A stretch of DNA of 64,000 nucleotides from positions 689,549 through 753,548 of the forward strand of contig NZ_CP005986.1 of the NCBI RefSeq assembly GCF_000175575.2, in the 5' to 3' direction. The notes beneath the pieces are model-generated. The model had not been told where the DNA came from, searched no databases, and was given only the letters and a program-made list of their open reading frames with translations. The translations under genes and the position numbers were made by a program. Shown here one piece after another: positions 8,774-36,138 of the stretch (position 1 is its first letter; every line of letters starts with the position of its first letter). The stretch is from Acidithiobacillus caldus ATCC 51756 (GTDB lineage Bacteria; Pseudomonadota; Gammaproteobacteria; Acidithiobacillales; Acidithiobacillaceae).

Positions 8774-9376
8774 TCAAGGCAGTTCGGCGTCGTCCGCCTC
8801 CCCAAAACCTCCCATCGTTCTGGCCACGAAGGGGCGTTCCGGAAACAGCCGCTCGCGGTAGTACTGCAGTTCGCCGATGGATTCGCGGATATCGGCCAGG
8901 GCCTCGTGACGCTCGGTCTTGGGATAGCGTGGTAGGCTGGGATACCAGCGGTAGGCTAGCTCCTTGATGGTACTGACGTCGATGAGGCGGTAGTGGAGAA
9001 AGCGCTCGAGACGAGGCATGAGGCGAGCTAGGAAACGCCGATCCTGACAGACGCTATTGCCGCACAGCGGCGCCGTACCCGGCTGAACGTGGGCTTGCAG
9101 GAAGTCCAGGGTCTGGGCCTCCACGGCGCCGAGGTCGAGGCGACTTTCACGCACCCGCTGAACGAGGCCGGAGTTCCCGTGGGTACGCTGATTCCAGTCG
9201 TCCATGGCGGCGAGCACCGCCTCGCTCTGATGGACCGCCAGAACCGGCCCTTCGCTAAGAACCCGAAGCTCATTGTCGGTGACGATGCTGGCAATCTCTA
9301 GTATCTGGTCCCGCTCCGGGTTCAGACCCGTCATCTCGAGATCGATCCAGACCAGGCGCTGTGTTTTCGGATCCAT
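8774..9376 (-). CDS. orn: Oligoribonuclease
   Basis: 200 residues, a normal length. The DEDDh exonuclease motifs are clear: [11 protein letters not shown] (DE), [10 protein letters not shown] with ALVAA-type spacing in the middle, [16 protein letters not shown] (D), and the H/D pair in [13 protein letters not shown]. It degrades 2-5 nt RNA and pGpG in the cytoplasm. GAGGAG precedes the ATG. Upstream on the same strand lies the terminator of the first candidate small RNA, 50 bp away. Confidence 0.96.
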
Positions 9377-9425: not shown

Positions 9426-9564
9426 AAAAAAAGACGGGCTCAAGAGCCCGTCCAATAGCCGCAAAACAACCGCTACAAAAATCGTGGGGACACTGGCGAA
9501 ACCATCGCCCTTTGTTCCATGCCAAGCCAGACCCCTGTTCAGGTATGGATTTGGTGTCCTATCC
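9426..9564 (-). ncRNA. Candidate small RNA 1 of a tandem trio
   Basis: Read on the minus strand, a -10-like hexamer TACTTT (9576-9571) lies 7 bp after a direct-repeat box. About 110 nt later comes the conserved block TTGTTTTGCGGCTATTG. It leads straight into a perfect 8-bp hairpin GACGGGCT-CTTG-AGCCCGTC and seven U residues, a textbook intrinsic terminator (9426-9452). The same block and terminator recur in candidates 2 and 3, while the 5' parts differ. There is no credible ORF. The start position is estimated from the -10 and could shift about 5 nt. An alternative -10 (TATAGC) lies 5 bp downstream. Confidence 0.6.
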
Positions 9565-9583
9565 AGCTATAAAGTACTCCCCG

Positions 9584-9610
9584 AATATTTCCGGATTATT
9601 TCAGAACGAT
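9584..9610 (-). promoter_or_regulatory. Direct-repeat activator box, copy 1
   Basis: On the plus strand TTTCCGGATTA is followed by TTTCAGAACGA, so the TTTC cores are exactly 11 bp apart, the spacing used by OmpR/PhoB-family dimers. Read on the minus strand it is CTGAAATAAT then CCGGAAATAT, placed 7 bp before the -10-like TACTTT of candidate small RNA 1. Confidence 0.5.
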
Positions 9611-9636
9611 CGCTTTCTGGATTCCTCCAGACCAAG

Positions 9637-9774
9637 AAAAAAAGACGGGCTAGAGAGCCCGTCCAATAGCCGCAAAACAACCGCTAAATCTGCTGGGTTC
9701 TGGCTCGAATCTTCGGCCGCACCTATGTCTGTCGCTCCATCACATTTTGAGGTTTGGGTCACTAAGCTTCATTG
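9637..9774 (-). ncRNA. Candidate small RNA 2 of a tandem trio
   Basis: Same architecture as candidate 1. A -10-like CATACT (9786-9781) follows the box at 9794-9816, then about 90 nt of unique sequence, the block GCGGTTGTTTTGCGGCTATT, and the hairpin GACGGGCT-CTCT-AGCCCGTC followed by seven U. The stem sequence is identical to that of candidate 1 while the loop differs, and 22 bp beyond the stem are conserved. A ten-codon ORF in the 5' part is probably chance. Confidence 0.6.
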
Positions 9775-9793
9775 CGTTGCAGTATGCTGGATT

Positions 9794-9820
9794 AATGTTT
9801 CCAGAATATTTCAGGGTGGT
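9794..9820 (-). promoter_or_regulatory. Direct-repeat activator box, copy 2
   Basis: Plus-strand units TTTCCAGAATA and TTTCAGGGTGG have TTTC cores at 9798 and 9809, again exactly 11 bp apart. On the minus strand CTGAAATATT then CTGGAAACAT precede the CATACT -10 of candidate small RNA 2 by 7 bp. Confidence 0.5.
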
Positions 9821-9982
9821 TGGAATCGATGGGAGTACGAATGCCGTCGCGCTGCTTGCCGCTTCGCCAAGGATGCTGCTGCGGACCAGAGACGAACTGG
9901 CGTCTGCGGGGGAGTGTGCAGTAGGTGCAGCATGTAAGCACCATCTGAGGCTGCGGGCTTGTCTCGGCTCTGTGGCGGTCAC

Positions 9983-10076
9983 AAAAAAGTGACGGGCACG
10001 AGGCCCGTCCAATAGCCGCAAAACAACGAGAACCGCGTCGAAGAGCGCCACAAACGACCCCCTACCGAACGCGAAT
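9983..10076 (-). ncRNA. Candidate small RNA 3 of a tandem trio
   Basis: A -10-like AATAAT (10088-10083) sits 7 bp from the box at 10096-10118. The transcript would be about 94 nt with a short unique 5' part, the shared block GTTGTTTTGCGGCTATTG, and a terminator GACGGGC-CTCGT-GCCCGTC. An AC separates that stem from a six-U tract. The stem is one pair shorter than in the other two copies, yet pairing is preserved. It lies head-to-head with the response regulator gene at 10144. Confidence 0.57.
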
Positions 10077-10095
10077 GGCTGGATTATTGCCGAGA

Positions 10096-10122
10096 ATTGT
10101 TTCAGAATTATTTCCAGATTCA
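10096..10122 (-). promoter_or_regulatory. Direct-repeat activator box, copy 3, shared with the response regulator gene
   Basis: Plus-strand units TTTCAGAATTA and TTTCCAGATTC have cores at 10100 and 10111 (11 bp apart). The minus strand reads CTGGAAATAA then CTGAAACAAT, 7 bp before AATAAT. On the other side the response regulator start codon is only about 26 bp away, so a protein bound here would cover that gene's promoter region too. Confidence 0.5.
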
Positions 10123-10143: not shown

Positions 10144-10887
10144 GTGGCCGTGGTGCTCATCGTCGACGATGACCAAAGACTGGCGGCTCTGCTGCAGGAC
10201 TTTCTGCAGGCCGAGGGCATGGTGGTGCGCACCGCCAGTAACGGCCGGGAGATGTGGCAGCAACTGGCGGCCGAACCCGTCGACGTGGTGGTGATGGACT
10301 GGATGTTGCCGGGAGGGCAGGACGGCATCAGCCTAGTTCGGGAACTTCGGGCCAAATCCGGTCCGCCCATCCTCATGCTGTCGGCCAGGGGTGAGGAAGA
10401 GGAACGTATCCACGGCCTCGAGAGCGGGGTGGAGGACTATCTTGCCAAGCCTTTCAACGCCCGTGAGTTGCTGGCGCGCCTGCGAGTCCTGTTGCGTCGT
10501 GCAGGTCGCGGCGACTCCGGAAGGGTGCTGCACTTCGGTCCCTTCGTGCTGGACCTGGTTGAGAGGCGGCTGTTCCGTGAGGGTGAGGTCGTGGAACTCA
10601 GTCCGGCGGAGATGGACCTTTTGTTGGTTTTTGCCCAACGACCCAATCGTGCGCTGAGCCGAGACCACCTCTTGCAAGCCTTGGGCGGAGACGATGACGG
10701 TCGTTTTGACCGGAGCATCGATGTGCGGGTGACACGACTGCGCAAACTCATCGAAGAAAATCCGCGCCAACCGCGGTTTCTGCGCACGGAACGGGGAGTG
10801 GGTTATCGCTTCGTGCCCAGGGAAAACGAAGGCGGCACGGGGCTTAAATCTTCTGCCGGCGATATCCCCCGGGACATCGCCGGCTGA
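10144..10887 (+). CDS. Orphan OmpR/PhoB-family response regulator
   Basis: 247 residues from a GTG preceded by AAGGAG. The receiver domain has the acidic pair in VLIVDDDQRL, the phospho-acceptor aspartate in VVVMDWMLP (about residue 53), the conserved Thr/Ser position LMLSARG and the lysine in AKPFN. A winged-helix DNA-binding domain follows (LSPAEMDLLLVFAQ, RSIDVRVTRLRKLIEEN, FLRTERGVGYRF). No histidine kinase gene is next to it. Upstream lies a direct-repeat box of OmpR-family spacing; two more precede the neighbouring small RNA candidates. Autoregulation and control of those RNAs is the natural inference but is unproven. The gene is convergent with the TonB-receptor operon. Confidence 0.92.
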   Translation: MAVVLIVDDDQRLAALLQDFLQAEGMVVRTASNGREMWQQLAAEPVDVVVMDWMLPGGQDGISLVRELRAKSGPPILMLSARGEEEERIHGLESGVEDYLAKPFNARELLARLRVLLRRAGRGDSGRVLHFGPFVLDLVERRLFREGEVVELSPAEMDLLLVFAQRPNRALSRDHLLQALGGDDDGRFDRSIDVRVTRLRKLIEENPRQPRFLRTERGVGYRFVPRENEGGTGLKSSAGDIPRDIAG

Positions 10888-10901: not shown

Positions 10902-13124
10902 TCAGAAGCTTGCCGTCACACTGCCGTAGAACGAGCGCGGCGCCTGGAAGTTGAAGGTGTCGCTGGGCGAGGGTTGCGGGCCCTTGACCTTGGCCTGGTA
11001 CACCCCACGCTCATCCGTCAGGTTGTAGATATCGAAGCCGAGCCGCAGGTTTTTGATCATCGGCGTGGGTGGGACGATGTCGTAACCCAGTTTGAGGTCC
11101 ACGTTATTCAGGGCGGGGAGAGGATACTGAGCATCGTCCCGGACATACTGGCGTCCAGTGCGCTTGTAGACGAGGGCAAAGTGGTAAGGTTTGGCATCGT
11201 AAAGGACCGCCGCCGCTGCCGTGTACAGGGGCGCGGCGGAAATGGTCTTGTTCGTCTCCTTGGATTTGGCGCTGTTGATGGAGCCATTGGCGTAGAGTGC
11301 CAGACCGTTGCCTAGGGCATAGGTGACCTCGCCCTCCACCCCTTTGTAGATCACCCCGCCCTGGTTGTAGTAATACGGGTCGCTCAGAGGAGAGTTGGGA
11401 TCTATGGCGTAGCGGTTGTTGAAGTCGATGTAGTACACATCGGCATCCCAGACCCAGTGTTCGGACTGGTGATTGAAGCCCACTTGGTAATTGGTGGTGG
11501 TTTCGGGATTCAAGCGATTTTTTTCACCATTGGCCGTCTGGAGAACGTCCAGGGGAGGAGCCAGGAATCCTTTGGCAAACTGCAGGTAGGCGGAATTTTC
11601 CTTGTCGAGGCGGTAATTGACTGTCAGGAAAGGTAGGGTGCTGTGATAGCTCTGGGAATAGAAAGCCGGCAGGCGTGATTTCTGATTGATGAGGGCGCTC
11701 ATGCTCCGGGTGAAGCGTATGTACTTGACGCCGGGTGTGACGGTCAAGGATTCCGTGGGCCGCCAGGCAAACTGGGCAAAGGGCTGAAGGTTGCGTGTGC
11801 CCGAATGCTGATCGAACTGTACGTTGTTGATTCCGCTAATAATGCCAGGAACGGCCTTCTGATCGAAATTGGGTGCTCCCGTCAGCAGGTCGTAATCCAC
11901 GCGTCCGCGCTGGGTGGCACCCGTTTCGACCCAAAGACCTGCCGTGGCACGGCCAAAGGACCAGTCTTTGTTCAGACGCAGGATATTACCCACGAGCCAA
12001 TAGCCGTTGAGTTTGTCGTATCCTGGTATACCCTGAACCTTTTTTCCGTTGGCGAGGACGACACTGCTCAAGCCCGCCAACGGATCCTTGCTGGAACTGG
12101 ATAGGGTACTATTGTGGTAGAAGTAATAATAGACCGAGTTGTCCAGAGAAAAGCCCTCGGCAAGCGCGCTCTGCACGCGAATATAACTGAAGCCCGTGTG
12201 CTTTTCCGTACGATTGTAGGCGTAATAATTGGCCAGAAGCGGGTTATCCCCCAGAGCAAAATCCTTGCCATAACGTAAAGCCTGCGACTCGGTGAGCTGG
12301 CCTTTGGTAGCATCGGATTGGTAGTAGGTGTTCCAGTTGAATGTGCTCAAGAGCGTGACCAGGGTACTTTCACCCAGGGGCACAAACATTTTGAACAGGA
12401 CGTTGTCGCCTTTGACGGGGGAAAAGGTCTGATAGCCGTCGCTGCTCTTGTGCTGGTAATTGACGAGATAACGTGCACCACCCGGCCAGGGCAGGGCACC
12501 ACTGTTGGCACGAGCCTTGAATAGCAGAGTATTGTTGGAACCGTAAAGGAATCCCAGCTTGCCGGAGGCCTTGGCGCTGGGGTCCGGGGAGAAGAGATTG
12601 ACGGAGCCGCCGAAGGTGGCGTAACCCAAATTGTCGGCGTTGCCGGGGCCGCGCTCGACGACGACACGATCGATGGTGGAAGCGGGAAAATACGCCGTGG
12701 AATGGTGCGTGAAATCGTTGGTATCGCCGAAGGGGATACCGTCGTAGGTCATGTTGAACTCACCATCACTAAAACCGCGAAGGTTCAGTTTGGATTCGCC
12801 GACACCCGGACCGTTACTGTTGAAGCCGCCGGATACGCCCGGAGCGAGGTTGGCAATCTGGTTGAAATCCGCATCGCCCATCACGGCGTTTTCGATGTAG
12901 TGGGAATCCAGGACGGTGGTGGGCTCCGTGGCCGATAGGGGCGACTTGCCCGGGGCCAGTGCCGGAGCGCTCTGGGGCCCATAGCTTTGGGTCGAGCCTC
13001 CGGCGTCGGCGGAGCCCGCTTCGGCGGCGGTCACCGTGCCCAGGGAGTCGGCGGCATGGGCCATTCCCGGGGCCAGCGCGATCAGGACGGCGATCTGCAA
13101 GGTTTTGACGGTATGAGAAAACAC
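10902..13124 (-). CDS. TonB-dependent outer-membrane receptor (distal gene of the cluster)
   Basis: 740 residues from a GTG with an AGGAG ribosome site. A 23-residue signal peptide ends in MAHA, followed by ADSLGTVT. The plug domain (about residues 75-190) contains LRGFSDGEFNMTYDGIPFGD and VERGPG, then a 22-strand barrel ends in Phe (GSVTASF). The upstream ATG at 13169 overlaps tonB and lacks a ribosome site, so it was not chosen. It is the last gene of the exbB-exbD-phosphoesterase-tonB cluster. The ligand cannot be told from sequence; operon context suggests a phosphate ester or its metal complex. Confidence 0.9.
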   Translation of the reverse strand: MFSHTVKTLQIAVLIALAPGMAHAADSLGTVTAAEAGSADAGGSTQSYGPQSAPALAPGKSPLSATEPTTVLDSHYIENAVMGDADFNQIANLAPGVSGGFNSNGPGVGESKLNLRGFSDGEFNMTYDGIPFGDTNDFTHHSTAYFPASTIDRVVVERGPGNADNLGYATFGGSVNLFSPDPSAKASGKLGFLYGSNNTLLFKARANSGALPWPGGARYLVNYQHKSSDGYQTFSPVKGDNVLFKMFVPLGESTLVTLLSTFNWNTYYQSDATKGQLTESQALRYGKDFALGDNPLLANYYAYNRTEKHTGFSYIRVQSALAEGFSLDNSVYYYFYHNSTLSSSSKDPLAGLSSVVLANGKKVQGIPGYDKLNGYWLVGNILRLNKDWSFGRATAGLWVETGATQRGRVDYDLLTGAPNFDQKAVPGIISGINNVQFDQHSGTRNLQPFAQFAWRPTESLTVTPGVKYIRFTRSMSALINQKSRLPAFYSQSYHSTLPFLTVNYRLDKENSAYLQFAKGFLAPPLDVLQTANGEKNRLNPETTTNYQVGFNHQSEHWVWDADVYYIDFNNRYAIDPNSPLSDPYYYNQGGVIYKGVEGEVTYALGNGLALYANGSINSAKSKETNKTISAAPLYTAAAAVLYDAKPYHFALVYKRTGRQYVRDDAQYPLPALNNVDLKLGYDIVPPTPMIKNLRLGFDIYNLTDERGVYQAKVKGPQPSPSDTFNFQAPRSFYGSVTASF

Positions 13125-13161
13125 GGTTGACGCTCCTTTTGCTCCATAGGCAAAAATGGGT

Positions 13162-13881
13162 TTAGTCATTGCGCAGTACGAATTCCACTTCCACATCGAA
13201 GCTGAAGTTTTCGTTTTTGAGCTCGGCGGGGGTGGGTGGCATCCGCGCGTCCCGAACCGCCGCAAGGGCTGCGCTATCGAAGGCTTCGAGACTACCCTTG
13301 CGCACGATGTAGGCGCGGGACACCACCCCGTTGCGCAGATCGAAATGCACCAGTACCCGCCCCTGCTCGCCCAGCATCCGCGCCGCTTCGGGATAGCGCA
13401 CCGCCGCTTGGATTGCGCCTTTGACCAAAGCGCGGTAGTCCGCCTTCACCGCGGGGTTGGCGGGCGGTGCCGGAGGTGGCGGCGGTGTCTGCGGCACGGG
13501 CTGGGGCGGCGGCGCCTGTACCGGACTGGGCAGGGGGCTCGGCGGCAGGGCCTCGCGTACGGGCTTGGGCGCTGGTTCCGGTTTGGGTGTGGGCCTTGGC
13601 ACCGGCTTTGGCGTTGGCTTCGGAACCGGCTTGGGCGTGGGTTTGGGCGGCGTCGGTGTCGGCTTGGGGGGTGGCGGCGCCGGTGGCAGGGGCTTGGGTT
13701 CCTGCACGAGTTCCAGCTGCATGGGCGGCATGGCGGCGGGCGGTGGGGTAGAGCTCTGCGCCTGCCATAGCGCCAGGCCCAGCAGAGTGGCTTCCGCCAG
13801 AATGGCCAGTATCCAGGCTTTTCTCTGAGTTTGGGGCTCGGCGCGAAGCTCCGTCCCAAGCTCACGAAAATCGATATCCAC
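13162..13881 (-). CDS. tonB: TonB energy transducer
   Basis: 239 residues. One N-terminal transmembrane helix (about residues 23-40) is followed by a very long Pro-Lys/Pro-Thr rich periplasmic linker (about residues 55-145, many PKPTP repeats). The C-terminal TonB domain contains the YP motif (AAVRYPEAARMLGEQGRVLVHFDL). It couples the proton motive force, through ExbB-ExbD, to the two receptors in the same cluster. It lies 3 nt after the phosphoesterase gene stop. Confidence 0.93.
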   Translation of the reverse strand: MDIDFRELGTELRAEPQTQRKAWILAILAEATLLGLALWQAQSSTPPPAAMPPMQLELVQEPKPLPPAPPPPKPTPTPPKPTPKPVPKPTPKPVPRPTPKPEPAPKPVREALPPSPLPSPVQAPPPQPVPQTPPPPPAPPANPAVKADYRALVKGAIQAAVRYPEAARMLGEQGRVLVHFDLRNGVVSRAYIVRKGSLEAFDSAALAAVRDARMPPTPAELKNENFSFDVEVEFVLRND

Positions 13882-13884
13882 GGC

Positions 13885-16731
13885 TCAGTCCTCCCTCATC
13901 GATGCTGTCGCGACCTGAGCGCTGGGATAGGGTCCATCCATCAAGCCGCTCCAGAGGATGCGGTTGTAGCGCGTGGTATCGAGACGATCCTCGGTGCGGA
14001 AATCCATTCCGGCGGTCGCCTTTGCCCAATAAAGGCGGTCGTGGCGTGGCGCTTGGGCAGTCTGCGTTGCGCAGGTTTTGGCCGAGGCCGGGAAATGCTC
14101 CGCCAGGGCGGTTCCCAGGATGTAGGGCGAGGGACAAGCGTCGAAATTCCACTGGGTCTGTTGCGTGTCGAAGACCTCGACCATGGGCCGCGCCGCTGCC
14201 ACCAGACCGTTCATGGGCGAGATACCGAGAATTTCCGTCATGGTGCGCAGCATGCTGAGGGTATTGTAGGGAGCGGAGACCACCCTCCCGCGGGCGACGT
14301 AGGGACCCACCACCAGAGCGATGCTGCGGTGGGCATCCACGTGGTCGGGACCGTCCTGGGCATCGTCCTCCAGCACAAAGATCAGGGTATCCTTGGCAAA
14401 GCGGCTGTGCGCCACCCGCTCCAGCAGGAGTCCCAGGGCATAATCGTTATCTGCCACCTGGCGTTCTGGAGTGTCGATACCGTCCATGGCCTCCTTGAAG
14501 GAGCCGGTGTGATCCCCCGGCAAACGCACCAGGGAGAGCTGTGGCAGTTGCCCTTGCTTCTCGTAGGCGCTGAATTCCCGTTCCCACTCCTTGAAGCGCC
14601 AGAAATCGGGGTAGGCACTGTCAAAGCCGCGGTAATAGACATCCGTCAGGGGGGCGAGCTCCGGATTGGCGGACACACCTTGGGGTTTCTGCTCGGCAAA
14701 GGCGTGGCGGGAAGCCTTGTAGGTGGTGTCCTCGGCGCGGTGGTAGAGACTTAGAAAGAAGCCGTAGTTGCGGACCGTGACGCCCTGTCGTAGCGCGGCA
14801 CTCCAGAGGTAGCCCTTTTGTCTTGCTCCATCCATGGCATCGGGGGCGGCGGCATCGGCGGTCCCCGGAAGAAGGTCCGGATCCTCGGGTAAGCGCGGAT
14901 CGGCTGCGCGCCGGGCAGCACCAGTCAGGGCCACGTTGATGCCCCGATTGCTCCCTTCCCAATCGTAAGCGCCGCCACCATTGCTGTAGGACAAGGGCAG
15001 GGTCTTGACGCTGAGGTAGGACTCACGACCCGCCGTGGACCAGGCCCAGCCGTTGCCACTGACCTCACCCGTTACCAGAAAGTTGTCCAGGAGCACGTAC
15101 TGCTCCGCAGCTCGGTGCTGATTGGGTGTGGTGCGGCGCGGAAATTCGGCGAGTTTCGGATCGCCGTTGCCACGCGGGAGATCACCAAATATCTGATCGT
15201 AACTGCGGTTTTCCTTGATCACGTAAATGACGTGATGAACGTGCTGGCGCAGGAAGGCCAGGGTCGCCTGCTCCTGGGGAGTCAGGGGAATGGCCGGGTG
15301 ATTGTTCTGCCAGGTCTCGCGGGTCAGACGATCGAGGATTTTGGGATCCTGCGGAAGGGGAATCTTCTGCAAACCGGAGTCCACTTTCTGCAGAATGTAC
15401 TGGTTGGCTCGCGCCTGCACAGGAGAAGTGTCGAGACAGCCGCGAAAGCGTCCGTAGCAGAGCCCGGTATTGGGGCCCGGCATGGTTTTGTTGTTGACCA
15501 CCCAGAGCGTTTGGGCATCGGCGCTCACGGCAAGGTCCTGGGGTGACCAGGCCGTTGGCAGGAGGGCGAGGCTCTCGGGCCGATCGCGGCTAAGGTCCAG
15601 CAAGGCAACGGCATTCATGCGGCCAATGCTGGCGTAGAGCCGCTTGCCGTCGCGAGACATGGCCAGACTGTTGGCAGACCAGCCGAGATTCTTGGCGCCC
15701 ACAAAACCCGCAGCCTGCAGTTCGGGCGCGAGCTTTGCGGGCAGGAGGGGGGCTTCACCCAGCATCTGGAAATCGGCCAGGTCTATCACCGCAATACTGT
15801 CCCGATTGTCCTGAGCGACGTACAGGCGCTTACGGGCCTCGTCCACGAGCAGGCGTCCGGGGTTGCCTGGAACGGCCAGACGCCGCAGGACCTGGGCGCC
15901 GTCGGGGGCAACTTTCAGCAGTATCAGTTCTCGATCCCTGAGGCTGGAAACGATGGCGTGTGCCGCATCCGTCCAGACGAGCGTCAGAGGATACTCGCCA
16001 CCGGCCACACCGCTTTGACCCTGGCTGGGACCGGGACGCAGATCTTGCTCCCACAGGACGCGGCGACTGTAGGTATCGATGAGGCTCACGGAATCGTCGA
16101 AGGTGTTACAGACGAGGAGGTAGTGACCACTGGGATCCAGGGCGAGACCTGCAGCCAGAGGTTTGACGCCAATTCCGAGACCTTTGCCTTGGTGTCCCAG
16201 GGCAATGCTCGGTCCAGCGATTCGCCACGGGGCCCGCGCATCGGTGCGCTGCAGGACCAGGACACCGTCCTTCACACCGGTGCTGAGGTACAGGGTTCGC
16301 TCATCGGCACTCAGGGCCATGCCCTCAAAACTGTCGAAAAGGGGAAGGGATTGCGCCAGGGCTGGCACCTGCGAAGAGAGCTGCAGGCGGAGGAGGTGCT
16401 GGTTGGAGAGCTTCTGGTCCGTTTTGCCGGGTGCCTCGTCGACATTCTTGTAGCCGGCACCCAGGACCAAGGCCTCGTTACCACTGGCAGCAAGCAGGAT
16501 GCGCGTGGCGCCGTGCAGGGCCAGATCCGGATGCGTGCCATCGGCCGGCAGCCGCCAGAAAGCGCTTCCCGGAGTGGCCAGCGGCATCAGCCGCTGACCG
16601 CTGGAGATGAGGGTCGCCGAGCTAGCCGGAGCCGTTGCCGACTCGCGTGCAAAGATGGCCGTGGCAGCGAGGCAGGCGAATACCGCCGCCGAGCGGAGCA
16701 GAGGGCGTGCGTAGGATGGGACGAATCGCAT
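13885..16731 (-). CDS. Secreted beta-propeller / phosphoesterase (PF04185-type) fusion protein
   Basis: 948 residues. A signal peptide (about 1-30) is followed by a seven-bladed propeller-like region (about 60-430, repeats such as GLALDPSGHYLLVCN and SLAMSRDGKRLYASI). A phosphoesterase domain then carries ENRSYDQIFGD (metal and substrate site), LVRLPGDHTG, and EDDAQDGPDHVDAHRS with the conserved Asp/His metal ligands. PF04185 members include acid phosphatases and phospholipase C. It sits between exbD and tonB, so it probably releases or processes a substrate imported by the neighbouring TonB receptors. The start ATG lies 5 bp after the exbD stop. Confidence 0.87.
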   Translation of the reverse strand: MRFVPSYARPLLRSAAVFACLAATAIFARESATAPASSATLISSGQRLMPLATPGSAFWRLPADGTHPDLALHGATRILLAASGNEALVLGAGYKNVDEAPGKTDQKLSNQHLLRLQLSSQVPALAQSLPLFDSFEGMALSADERTLYLSTGVKDGVLVLQRTDARAPWRIAGPSIALGHQGKGLGIGVKPLAAGLALDPSGHYLLVCNTFDDSVSLIDTYSRRVLWEQDLRPGPSQGQSGVAGGEYPLTLVWTDAAHAIVSSLRDRELILLKVAPDGAQVLRRLAVPGNPGRLLVDEARKRLYVAQDNRDSIAVIDLADFQMLGEAPLLPAKLAPELQAAGFVGAKNLGWSANSLAMSRDGKRLYASIGRMNAVALLDLSRDRPESLALLPTAWSPQDLAVSADAQTLWVVNNKTMPGPNTGLCYGRFRGCLDTSPVQARANQYILQKVDSGLQKIPLPQDPKILDRLTRETWQNNHPAIPLTPQEQATLAFLRQHVHHVIYVIKENRSYDQIFGDLPRGNGDPKLAEFPRRTTPNQHRAAEQYVLLDNFLVTGEVSGNGWAWSTAGRESYLSVKTLPLSYSNGGGAYDWEGSNRGINVALTGAARRAADPRLPEDPDLLPGTADAAAPDAMDGARQKGYLWSAALRQGVTVRNYGFFLSLYHRAEDTTYKASRHAFAEQKPQGVSANPELAPLTDVYYRGFDSAYPDFWRFKEWEREFSAYEKQGQLPQLSLVRLPGDHTGSFKEAMDGIDTPERQVADNDYALGLLLERVAHSRFAKDTLIFVLEDDAQDGPDHVDAHRSIALVVGPYVARGRVVSAPYNTLSMLRTMTEILGISPMNGLVAAARPMVEVFDTQQTQWNFDACPSPYILGTALAEHFPASAKTCATQTAQAPRHDRLYWAKATAGMDFRTEDRLDTTRYNRILWSGLMDGPYPSAQVATASMRED

Positions 16732-16735
16732 GGGC

Positions 16736-17134
16736 TCAGCGCGCCTCTTCGGGACGGGACGCCAGACCGATGGCCGTGACGCCGGCCTTGCGGCAGGTGT
16801 CCATGACATGGACCAGTGCCTGGACGTCGGCATGTTTATCGGCGGCGATGGTAATCTGCAGGTGCTCGGGATCGTGCTGGCGCAGATATTCCTCCAGGGC
16901 AGCGCGACCGTAAGTCTTGCCCTCGATCTCGGCTTCGCCTTGGGCGTTGAGATTGATCACGAGCTTGGGTTTAGGCAATTCCTGCGCGGTGCTGGAGCCC
17001 GGCATCTGCGCGGGCATGCCCTTATCGGGGATCATGTGGATGGTCACCATGATGAAGAACACCAGCAAAAACAGCATGATGTCGATCATCGGGATGATCT
17101 CGATGCGGGCTTTTTTGACCTCCAGATACTGCAC
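16736..17134 (-). CDS. exbD: ExbD-type biopolymer transport protein
   Basis: 132 residues. A single N-terminal transmembrane helix carries the essential aspartate in IIPMIDIMLFLLVFFIM, followed by a periplasmic domain (PKPKLVINLNAQGEAEIEG, ITIAADKHADVQALVHVMD). It forms the proton-driven motor with ExbB. It starts 3 nt after the exbB stop, so the two are translationally linked. Confidence 0.95.
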   Translation of the reverse strand: MQYLEVKKARIEIIPMIDIMLFLLVFFIMVTIHMIPDKGMPAQMPGSSTAQELPKPKLVINLNAQGEAEIEGKTYGRAALEEYLRQHDPEHLQITIAADKHADVQALVHVMDTCRKAGVTAIGLASRPEEAR

Positions 17135-35952: not shown

Positions 35953-36138
35953 AAGATGCTCCCTGCGGGGCACGTGTGGCCGAGATGATTCCTGAACCAA
36001 CATTGTCTATCCAGGGGATCCTCAGTCATCACCGCGGTGTGCCGCTCTTTTGCGGAGTAGCCTGAAGCGGTGTGTGGATTCCCACCTGAACATCAGGTTC
36101 CTGGGATAGCGGGCCGCACGACCCAGGCGGGGAGTCTT
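35953..36138 (+). ncRNA. ssrS: 6S RNA
   Basis: About 186 nt between zapA and the 5-FCL gene, the usual location. The ends pair (AAGA with TCTT, CTCCC with GGGAG). Inside them CGTGTGGCC pairs with GGCCGCACG, flanking a large central bubble. The 3' half contains CACCTGAACATCAGGTTCC, closely resembling the E. coli 6S segment CACCTTGAACCAAGGGTTC. It mimics an open promoter and sequesters sigma70 RNA polymerase in stationary phase. Ends are approximate. Confidence 0.88.

Follow-up and report, generated by a model that had tools for sequence, protein, structure and literature searches.

Three predicted small-RNA genes of Acidithiobacillus caldus ATCC 51756, which occupy the minus strand in the interval from orn to a divergently oriented response-regulator gene, are quite likely to encode sibling trans-acting sRNAs that the adjacent regulator switches on as a set through tandem boxes and that Hfq offers for base pairing. 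Within the window (the whole 64,000-nucleotide stretch of DNA that was analysed), each unit has the same order of elements: it opens with a tandem-repeat box and a -10-like hexamer, continues with approximately 50-100 nt that are largely specific to the copy, and closes with the block TTGTTTTGCGGCTATTG, a hairpin rich in G+C and a U tract (Table 1). The conserved 3' block is 17 nt long (TTGTTTTGCGGCTATTR) and lies directly before the terminator hairpin with its U tract in all three units; in copy 3, AC precedes the T run of the terminator. A sequence search of the window located the three minus-strand copies at the positions where the first-pass annotation had placed them, with stems that pair while the loops differ, as it had described. 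The transcript starts that it had proposed (9564, 9774 and 10076) agree as well, since counting 38 nt from the first half-site of each box leads to exactly these positions. Nor is the block a genome-wide repeat, the outcome that the annotation had regarded as incompatible with its reading. The 2.99-Mb genome contains an 18-nt core of the module three times in total, each time at the three-sRNA locus, and the 24-nt string GCCCGTCCAATAGCCGCAAAACAA, which comprises the block and half of the stem, occurs three times in the window versus zero times in 100 shuffles.

Table 1. Predicted features of the sRNA locus and its flanking genes, with positions numbered along the window
Feature	Positions	Strand	Remarks
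orn, oligoribonuclease	8774..9376	-	conserved downstream neighbour, outside the RNA system
Predicted sRNA copy 1	9426..9564	-	139 nt; adjoins orn; block 9453-9469; stem-loop 9433-9452; U tract 9426-9432
-10-like hexamer, copy 1	9571..9576	-	TACTTT; fixed phase to box; sequence logo over 51 distinct promoters
Operator box, copy 1 (predicted)	9584..9602	-	GAAATAATCCGGAAATATT; two half-sites 11 bp apart
Predicted sRNA copy 2	9637..9774	-	138 nt; with the 5' block that is shared in the family; block 9664-9680; stem-loop 9644-9663; U tract 9637-9643
-10-like hexamer, copy 2	9781..9786	-	CATACT; same sequence logo
Operator box, copy 2 (predicted)	9794..9812	-	GAAATATTCTGGAAACATT
Predicted sRNA copy 3	9983..10076	-	94 nt; short type adjoining the regulator; block 10010-10026; stem-loop 9991-10009; tail ACTTTTTT
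-10-like hexamer, copy 3	10083..10088	-	AATAAT; same sequence logo
Operator box, copy 3 (predicted)	10096..10114	-	GAAATAATTCTGAAACAAT; approximately 30 bp before the regulator gene start codon
OmpR-family response regulator that probably activates the three sRNAs	10144..10887	+	not the published A. caldus OmpR

When 57 genomes were searched at the DNA level, homologous DNA was present in 28 of the 29 Acidithiobacillaceae genomes, covering four genera; the 28 genomes from outside this family had none. We gathered 53 copies from 28 genomes, at one to three per genome (G003 and G006 have a single copy each), and these lie between an OmpR-family response regulator gene and orn. Beside the regulator gene of G006 (L029, 208-330), a second sRNA copy also seems to have left its promoter and 5' end as a remnant, severed by an inserted gene. 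When the 3' module is aligned across the family, the block is almost unchanged. The terminator stem occurs as GACGGGC, GACGGAC, GACGGATC or GGCGAAC, each with a matching partner; among 31 distinct sequences, 99.5% of the stem cells are paired and both sides have changed in four of the seven pairs. Cells with both sides changed number 19, whereas shuffling gives 5.1 and sliding no more than 2; these cells are sequences and not events, yet stem types recur in different genera. As read from the alignment, the terminator stem is changing by compensation while the block stays nearly invariant.

Elsewhere, a search of 84,980 species and of viral contigs returned only scattered matches to the block outside the family, none of them followed by the terminator hairpin, and we estimate their number to be about that expected by chance. 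A covariance model applied to 369 genomes of the class gave outside-family matches that mostly fit the generic terminator half only, and the full-length matches that we inspected were without the block. Plasmid records contained no match. It is by comparison of related genomes that the gene units, their predicted promoter architecture and terminators, their linkage and their family-wide conservation are established. Because the same arrangement has been kept across a whole bacterial family, the locus looks like a real sRNA regulatory system. The original proposal, that sibling sRNAs form a family with common control, finds strong comparative support in the conserved position, compensatory stem changes, a box and -10 hexamer in register, the terminators that the units have of their own, and the lack of a genome-wide repeat in the host genome; the adjacent OmpR-family regulator, the shared 5' block and the family-wide conservation had not been part of it.

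The direct-repeat box and -10-like hexamer of the earlier proposal are present at each copy, but the box is better described as a predicted operator of two half-sites with an 11-bp period, which would replace the -35 element and stands at a fixed distance before the -10 hexamer. In the three window units it spans 22 bp with a phased -10. The family form, GGAAATATTCYNGAAACAWT, has two half-sites 11 bp apart and is accompanied by a fixed-phase -10 in 52 of the 53 copies. The exception, in G016, is cut by a contig edge, and its box turns up on the neighbouring contig, at the end and next to the regulator gene; at this contig break (L335 1525-1640, L025 1-192), an insertion element has apparently split the sRNA promoter immediately past the box. 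Over 51 distinct promoters, the -10 hexamer lies 26-31 nt past the first half-site, with A27 and T31 invariant. A consensus scanner found no -35/-10 promoter at the sRNA units, as would be expected if an activator replaces the -35 element.

We also observed that the box is scarce elsewhere. In the host genome it occurs at zero or one mismatch only at the three sRNAs, and at two mismatches it has two sites versus one for the reversed control. Across 18 family genomes, 31 of 32 matches to the combined box and -10 pattern fall at the sRNA locus (one is that at the G016 contig edge), whereas ten outside genomes gave no match and the control pattern gave none either, in a search that looser sites may have escaped. 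The box thus defined appears to be nearly private to the sRNA genes. Its confinement to sRNA promoters suggests that the signalling system may act only through small RNAs.

The gene next to the sRNAs encodes an OmpR/PhoB-type response regulator, in which the receiver domain (PF00072, 104 bits) and the winged-helix Trans_reg_C domain (PF00486, 81 bits) both score over cut-off. Its best named model is OmpR, at 221 bits versus an NCBIfam equivalog cut-off of 331. The published A. caldus OmpR is another gene, as its cloning primer falls in the homologue at G000:C1:62121, and the neighbour regulator is a paralogue that is 41% identical to the OmpR at that position. Across the family, the neighbour regulator is 68-89% identical and adjoins the sRNAs wherever the contig allowed a check, with another gene in between in G006. 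Autoregulation of the regulator gene is possible, given the position of box 3 so close before its start codon. In the ferrooxidans group, a gene for a histidine kinase, the probable partner, directly follows the regulator gene in an operon, and the kinase has a weak match to the RisS periplasmic domain that is below the Pfam cut-off. The host genome encodes a homologue of this kinase (65% identical) at G000:C1:926606-927886, unlinked to the regulator gene. Window positions 10902-16833, beside the regulator, encode a TonB-dependent receptor, a TonB protein and a large phosphoesterase-family protein, and several relatives have TonB-type genes beside the regulator too.

With respect to activation, the tandem operator is shared in register and the units are linked to the OmpR-family regulator; the adjacent regulator is the probable common controller on these grounds of sequence and position. 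A reading in which genuine sRNAs answer to the true OmpR (EnvZ-OmpR, G000:C1:62121) or to another regulator, and not to the neighbour, is unlikely. The half-site GAAACA does resemble OmpR half-sites, the neighbour is a paralogue of that OmpR, and the box could be bound by a different OmpR-family regulator encoded in the genome. However, boxes of the published A. caldus OmpR stand before many genes, and the one at tetH has the sequence GTTACA with a 10-bp period (PMC9861516), whereas the sRNA box repeats at 11 bp and is hardly found away from the sRNAs, and it is the neighbour that is linked to the sRNAs across the family.

If the neighbour is the controller, each sRNA gene would be transcribed on its own from a promoter that has no sigma-70 -35 element and has the tandem 11-bp-period operator instead. 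The OmpR-family neighbour would be phosphorylated by an EnvZ/RisS-like kinase, encoded at an unlinked site in the host genome, and would in its phosphorylated form bind the boxes and activate all three copies together, and possibly its own gene too. Each RNA (94-139 nt) would end at its own intrinsic terminator, and the almost invariant UUGUUUUGCGGCUAUU before the terminator, along with the 5' block in some copies, would be offered by Hfq for short pairing with mRNA. Transcription, regulator binding, the kinase partner, Hfq dependence, base pairing and targets are steps that we infer. Hfq is encoded in the genome, and the sRNAs are probably Hfq-dependent; we read the units as base-pairing sRNAs by analogy with what is generally known of the kind.

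The 5' regions, which had been described as variable, are mostly copy-specific, but a second block (ACCCAAACC-TCA...GGAGCG), situated close to the 5' end, is common to the majority of family members, copy 2 among them. This block is absent from the short copy adjoining the regulator and is present in a diverged version in copy 1 of the host genome. A small hairpin, UAGC...GCUA, is predicted to form over the 3' block, in which GC-GGC would be largely paired and UUGUUUU largely open, and this partial closure of the block was counted against the reading that we prefer. We think it very unlikely that the three units are instead tandem leader or attenuator segments that control downstream orn and are not free trans-acting RNAs. 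All of the units point at orn, which is the downstream neighbour in every genome checked, yet each unit has a predicted promoter and terminator of its own. Moreover, the two copies of G015 lie 4.5 kb apart, one by the regulator gene and one by orn, with oppositely oriented reading frames between them, and G003 and G006 have only a single copy.

In relatives, the block is also found at six loci (L034-L039, in G004, G010, G023, G021, G014 and G002), where a 17-22 nt form of it has no box and is followed by unrelated terminators. In nearly all of them the block is preceded by TAGCGG or something close to it, and in L037-L039 a small membrane-protein-like gene has this TAG as its stop codon. These loci look mobile-like because their neighbour genes include those for SSB, a D12 methyltransferase, HU, an M50 peptidase and a PLD-like protein; in them, the sRNA module is placed as an mRNA 3' end. 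Copies of this type, located after other genes, could mean that the block and terminator constitute a mobile or selfish repeat that is present here three times by chance. We find this very hard to credit, as the three copies of the host genome are all at this locus, and the locus, box and register are the same across the family. Least credible of all is that the units are CsrA-sequestering RNAs of the CsrB/RsmY type. Such RNAs are controlled by a response regulator in other bacteria and A. caldus has CsrA, with no Csr-family sRNA found so far (PMC13029372), but GGA motifs, of which CsrB, RsmY and RsmZ offer many to CsrA, show no enrichment in the present set (136 observed versus 130 expected in 52 sequences), copy 3 having one and the conserved block none.

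Returning to sibling sRNAs that pair with mRNAs, we listed exact complements (AGCCGCAAAA) of the block core in seven genomes and read most of their surroundings. A few of them lie just before start codons: in both genomes of the host's own genus before a bamD-like gene, in the host genome before an L,D-transpeptidase-like gene, in two ferrooxidans-group genomes before a nadC-like gene, and in one genome each before an hldD-like and a cupin-like gene, where the gene names are our own reading of the sequences. Longer near-complements of the block were at control level. Since 10-mer and 17-mer complements of the block revealed no target conserved beyond a genus, and since A-rich sites near ribosome-binding sites are favoured anyway, these candidates are leads only, and the lack of a more widely conserved target weighs against the preferred reading. 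Post-transcriptional control in Acidithiobacillus, a biomining workhorse, is nearly unexplored, and the exact predicted starts, ends and operator, together with an adjacent probable switch, make transcription, regulator binding and targets directly testable; for A. caldus MTH-04, genes can be deleted without a marker (PMC9861516).

A cmscan search of Rfam to E up to 1 gave no family match for the sRNAs, only weak matches far below gathering scores; elsewhere in the window, a 6S RNA at 35957-36137 scores above the Rfam gathering score. OmrA/OmrB (RF00079) were not among the cmscan matches either at the gathering score or at E up to 1. We found no description of such an RNA in the open-access papers that were searched.

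The three units are homologous genes, each with its own predicted promoter and terminator, as is the case for sibling sRNAs under two-component systems in general. In Streptococcus, CiaR switches on the csRNAs through direct repeats, and in Vibrio, LuxO is a sigma-54 activator and one Qrr copy lies beside the regulator gene. As is proposed for the present set, the several sibling Qrr sRNAs are activated jointly by a single response regulator (PMC4211561), but their copies are mostly dispersed and they are quorum-controlled. The csRNAs, controlled by CiaRH, number two to six siblings, some of them in tandem, and are switched on, as is proposed here too, by an OmpR-family response regulator (PMC4211561). 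They differ in sequence and phylum, and CiaR controls other promoters too, with 5 of 15 reported to drive csRNAs. OmrA/OmrB of the Enterobacterales are also tandem siblings with shared ends and different middles; they are under EnvZ-OmpR control and Hfq-dependent (PMC4211561). Unlike OmrA/OmrB, however, the strongest element here is the shared 3' block and not the 5' end, the probable regulator is an OmpR paralogue encoded next door, and the boxes seem to belong to the sRNAs alone. Two-component control of sibling sRNAs is a known kind of system (PMC4211561), and this Acidithiobacillaceae set looks to be previously undescribed. A further reading, conceivable but on balance doubtful, is that the detectable regulon consists of nothing but the regulator's own sibling sRNAs, family-wide in acidophiles, and that mobile elements in relatives carry the 22-nt module as an mRNA 3' end without the box, so that the host network would receive a look-alike RNA that is separately controlled. 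Such a private regulon and the mobile copies are what could raise the novelty of this system above that of the known kind.
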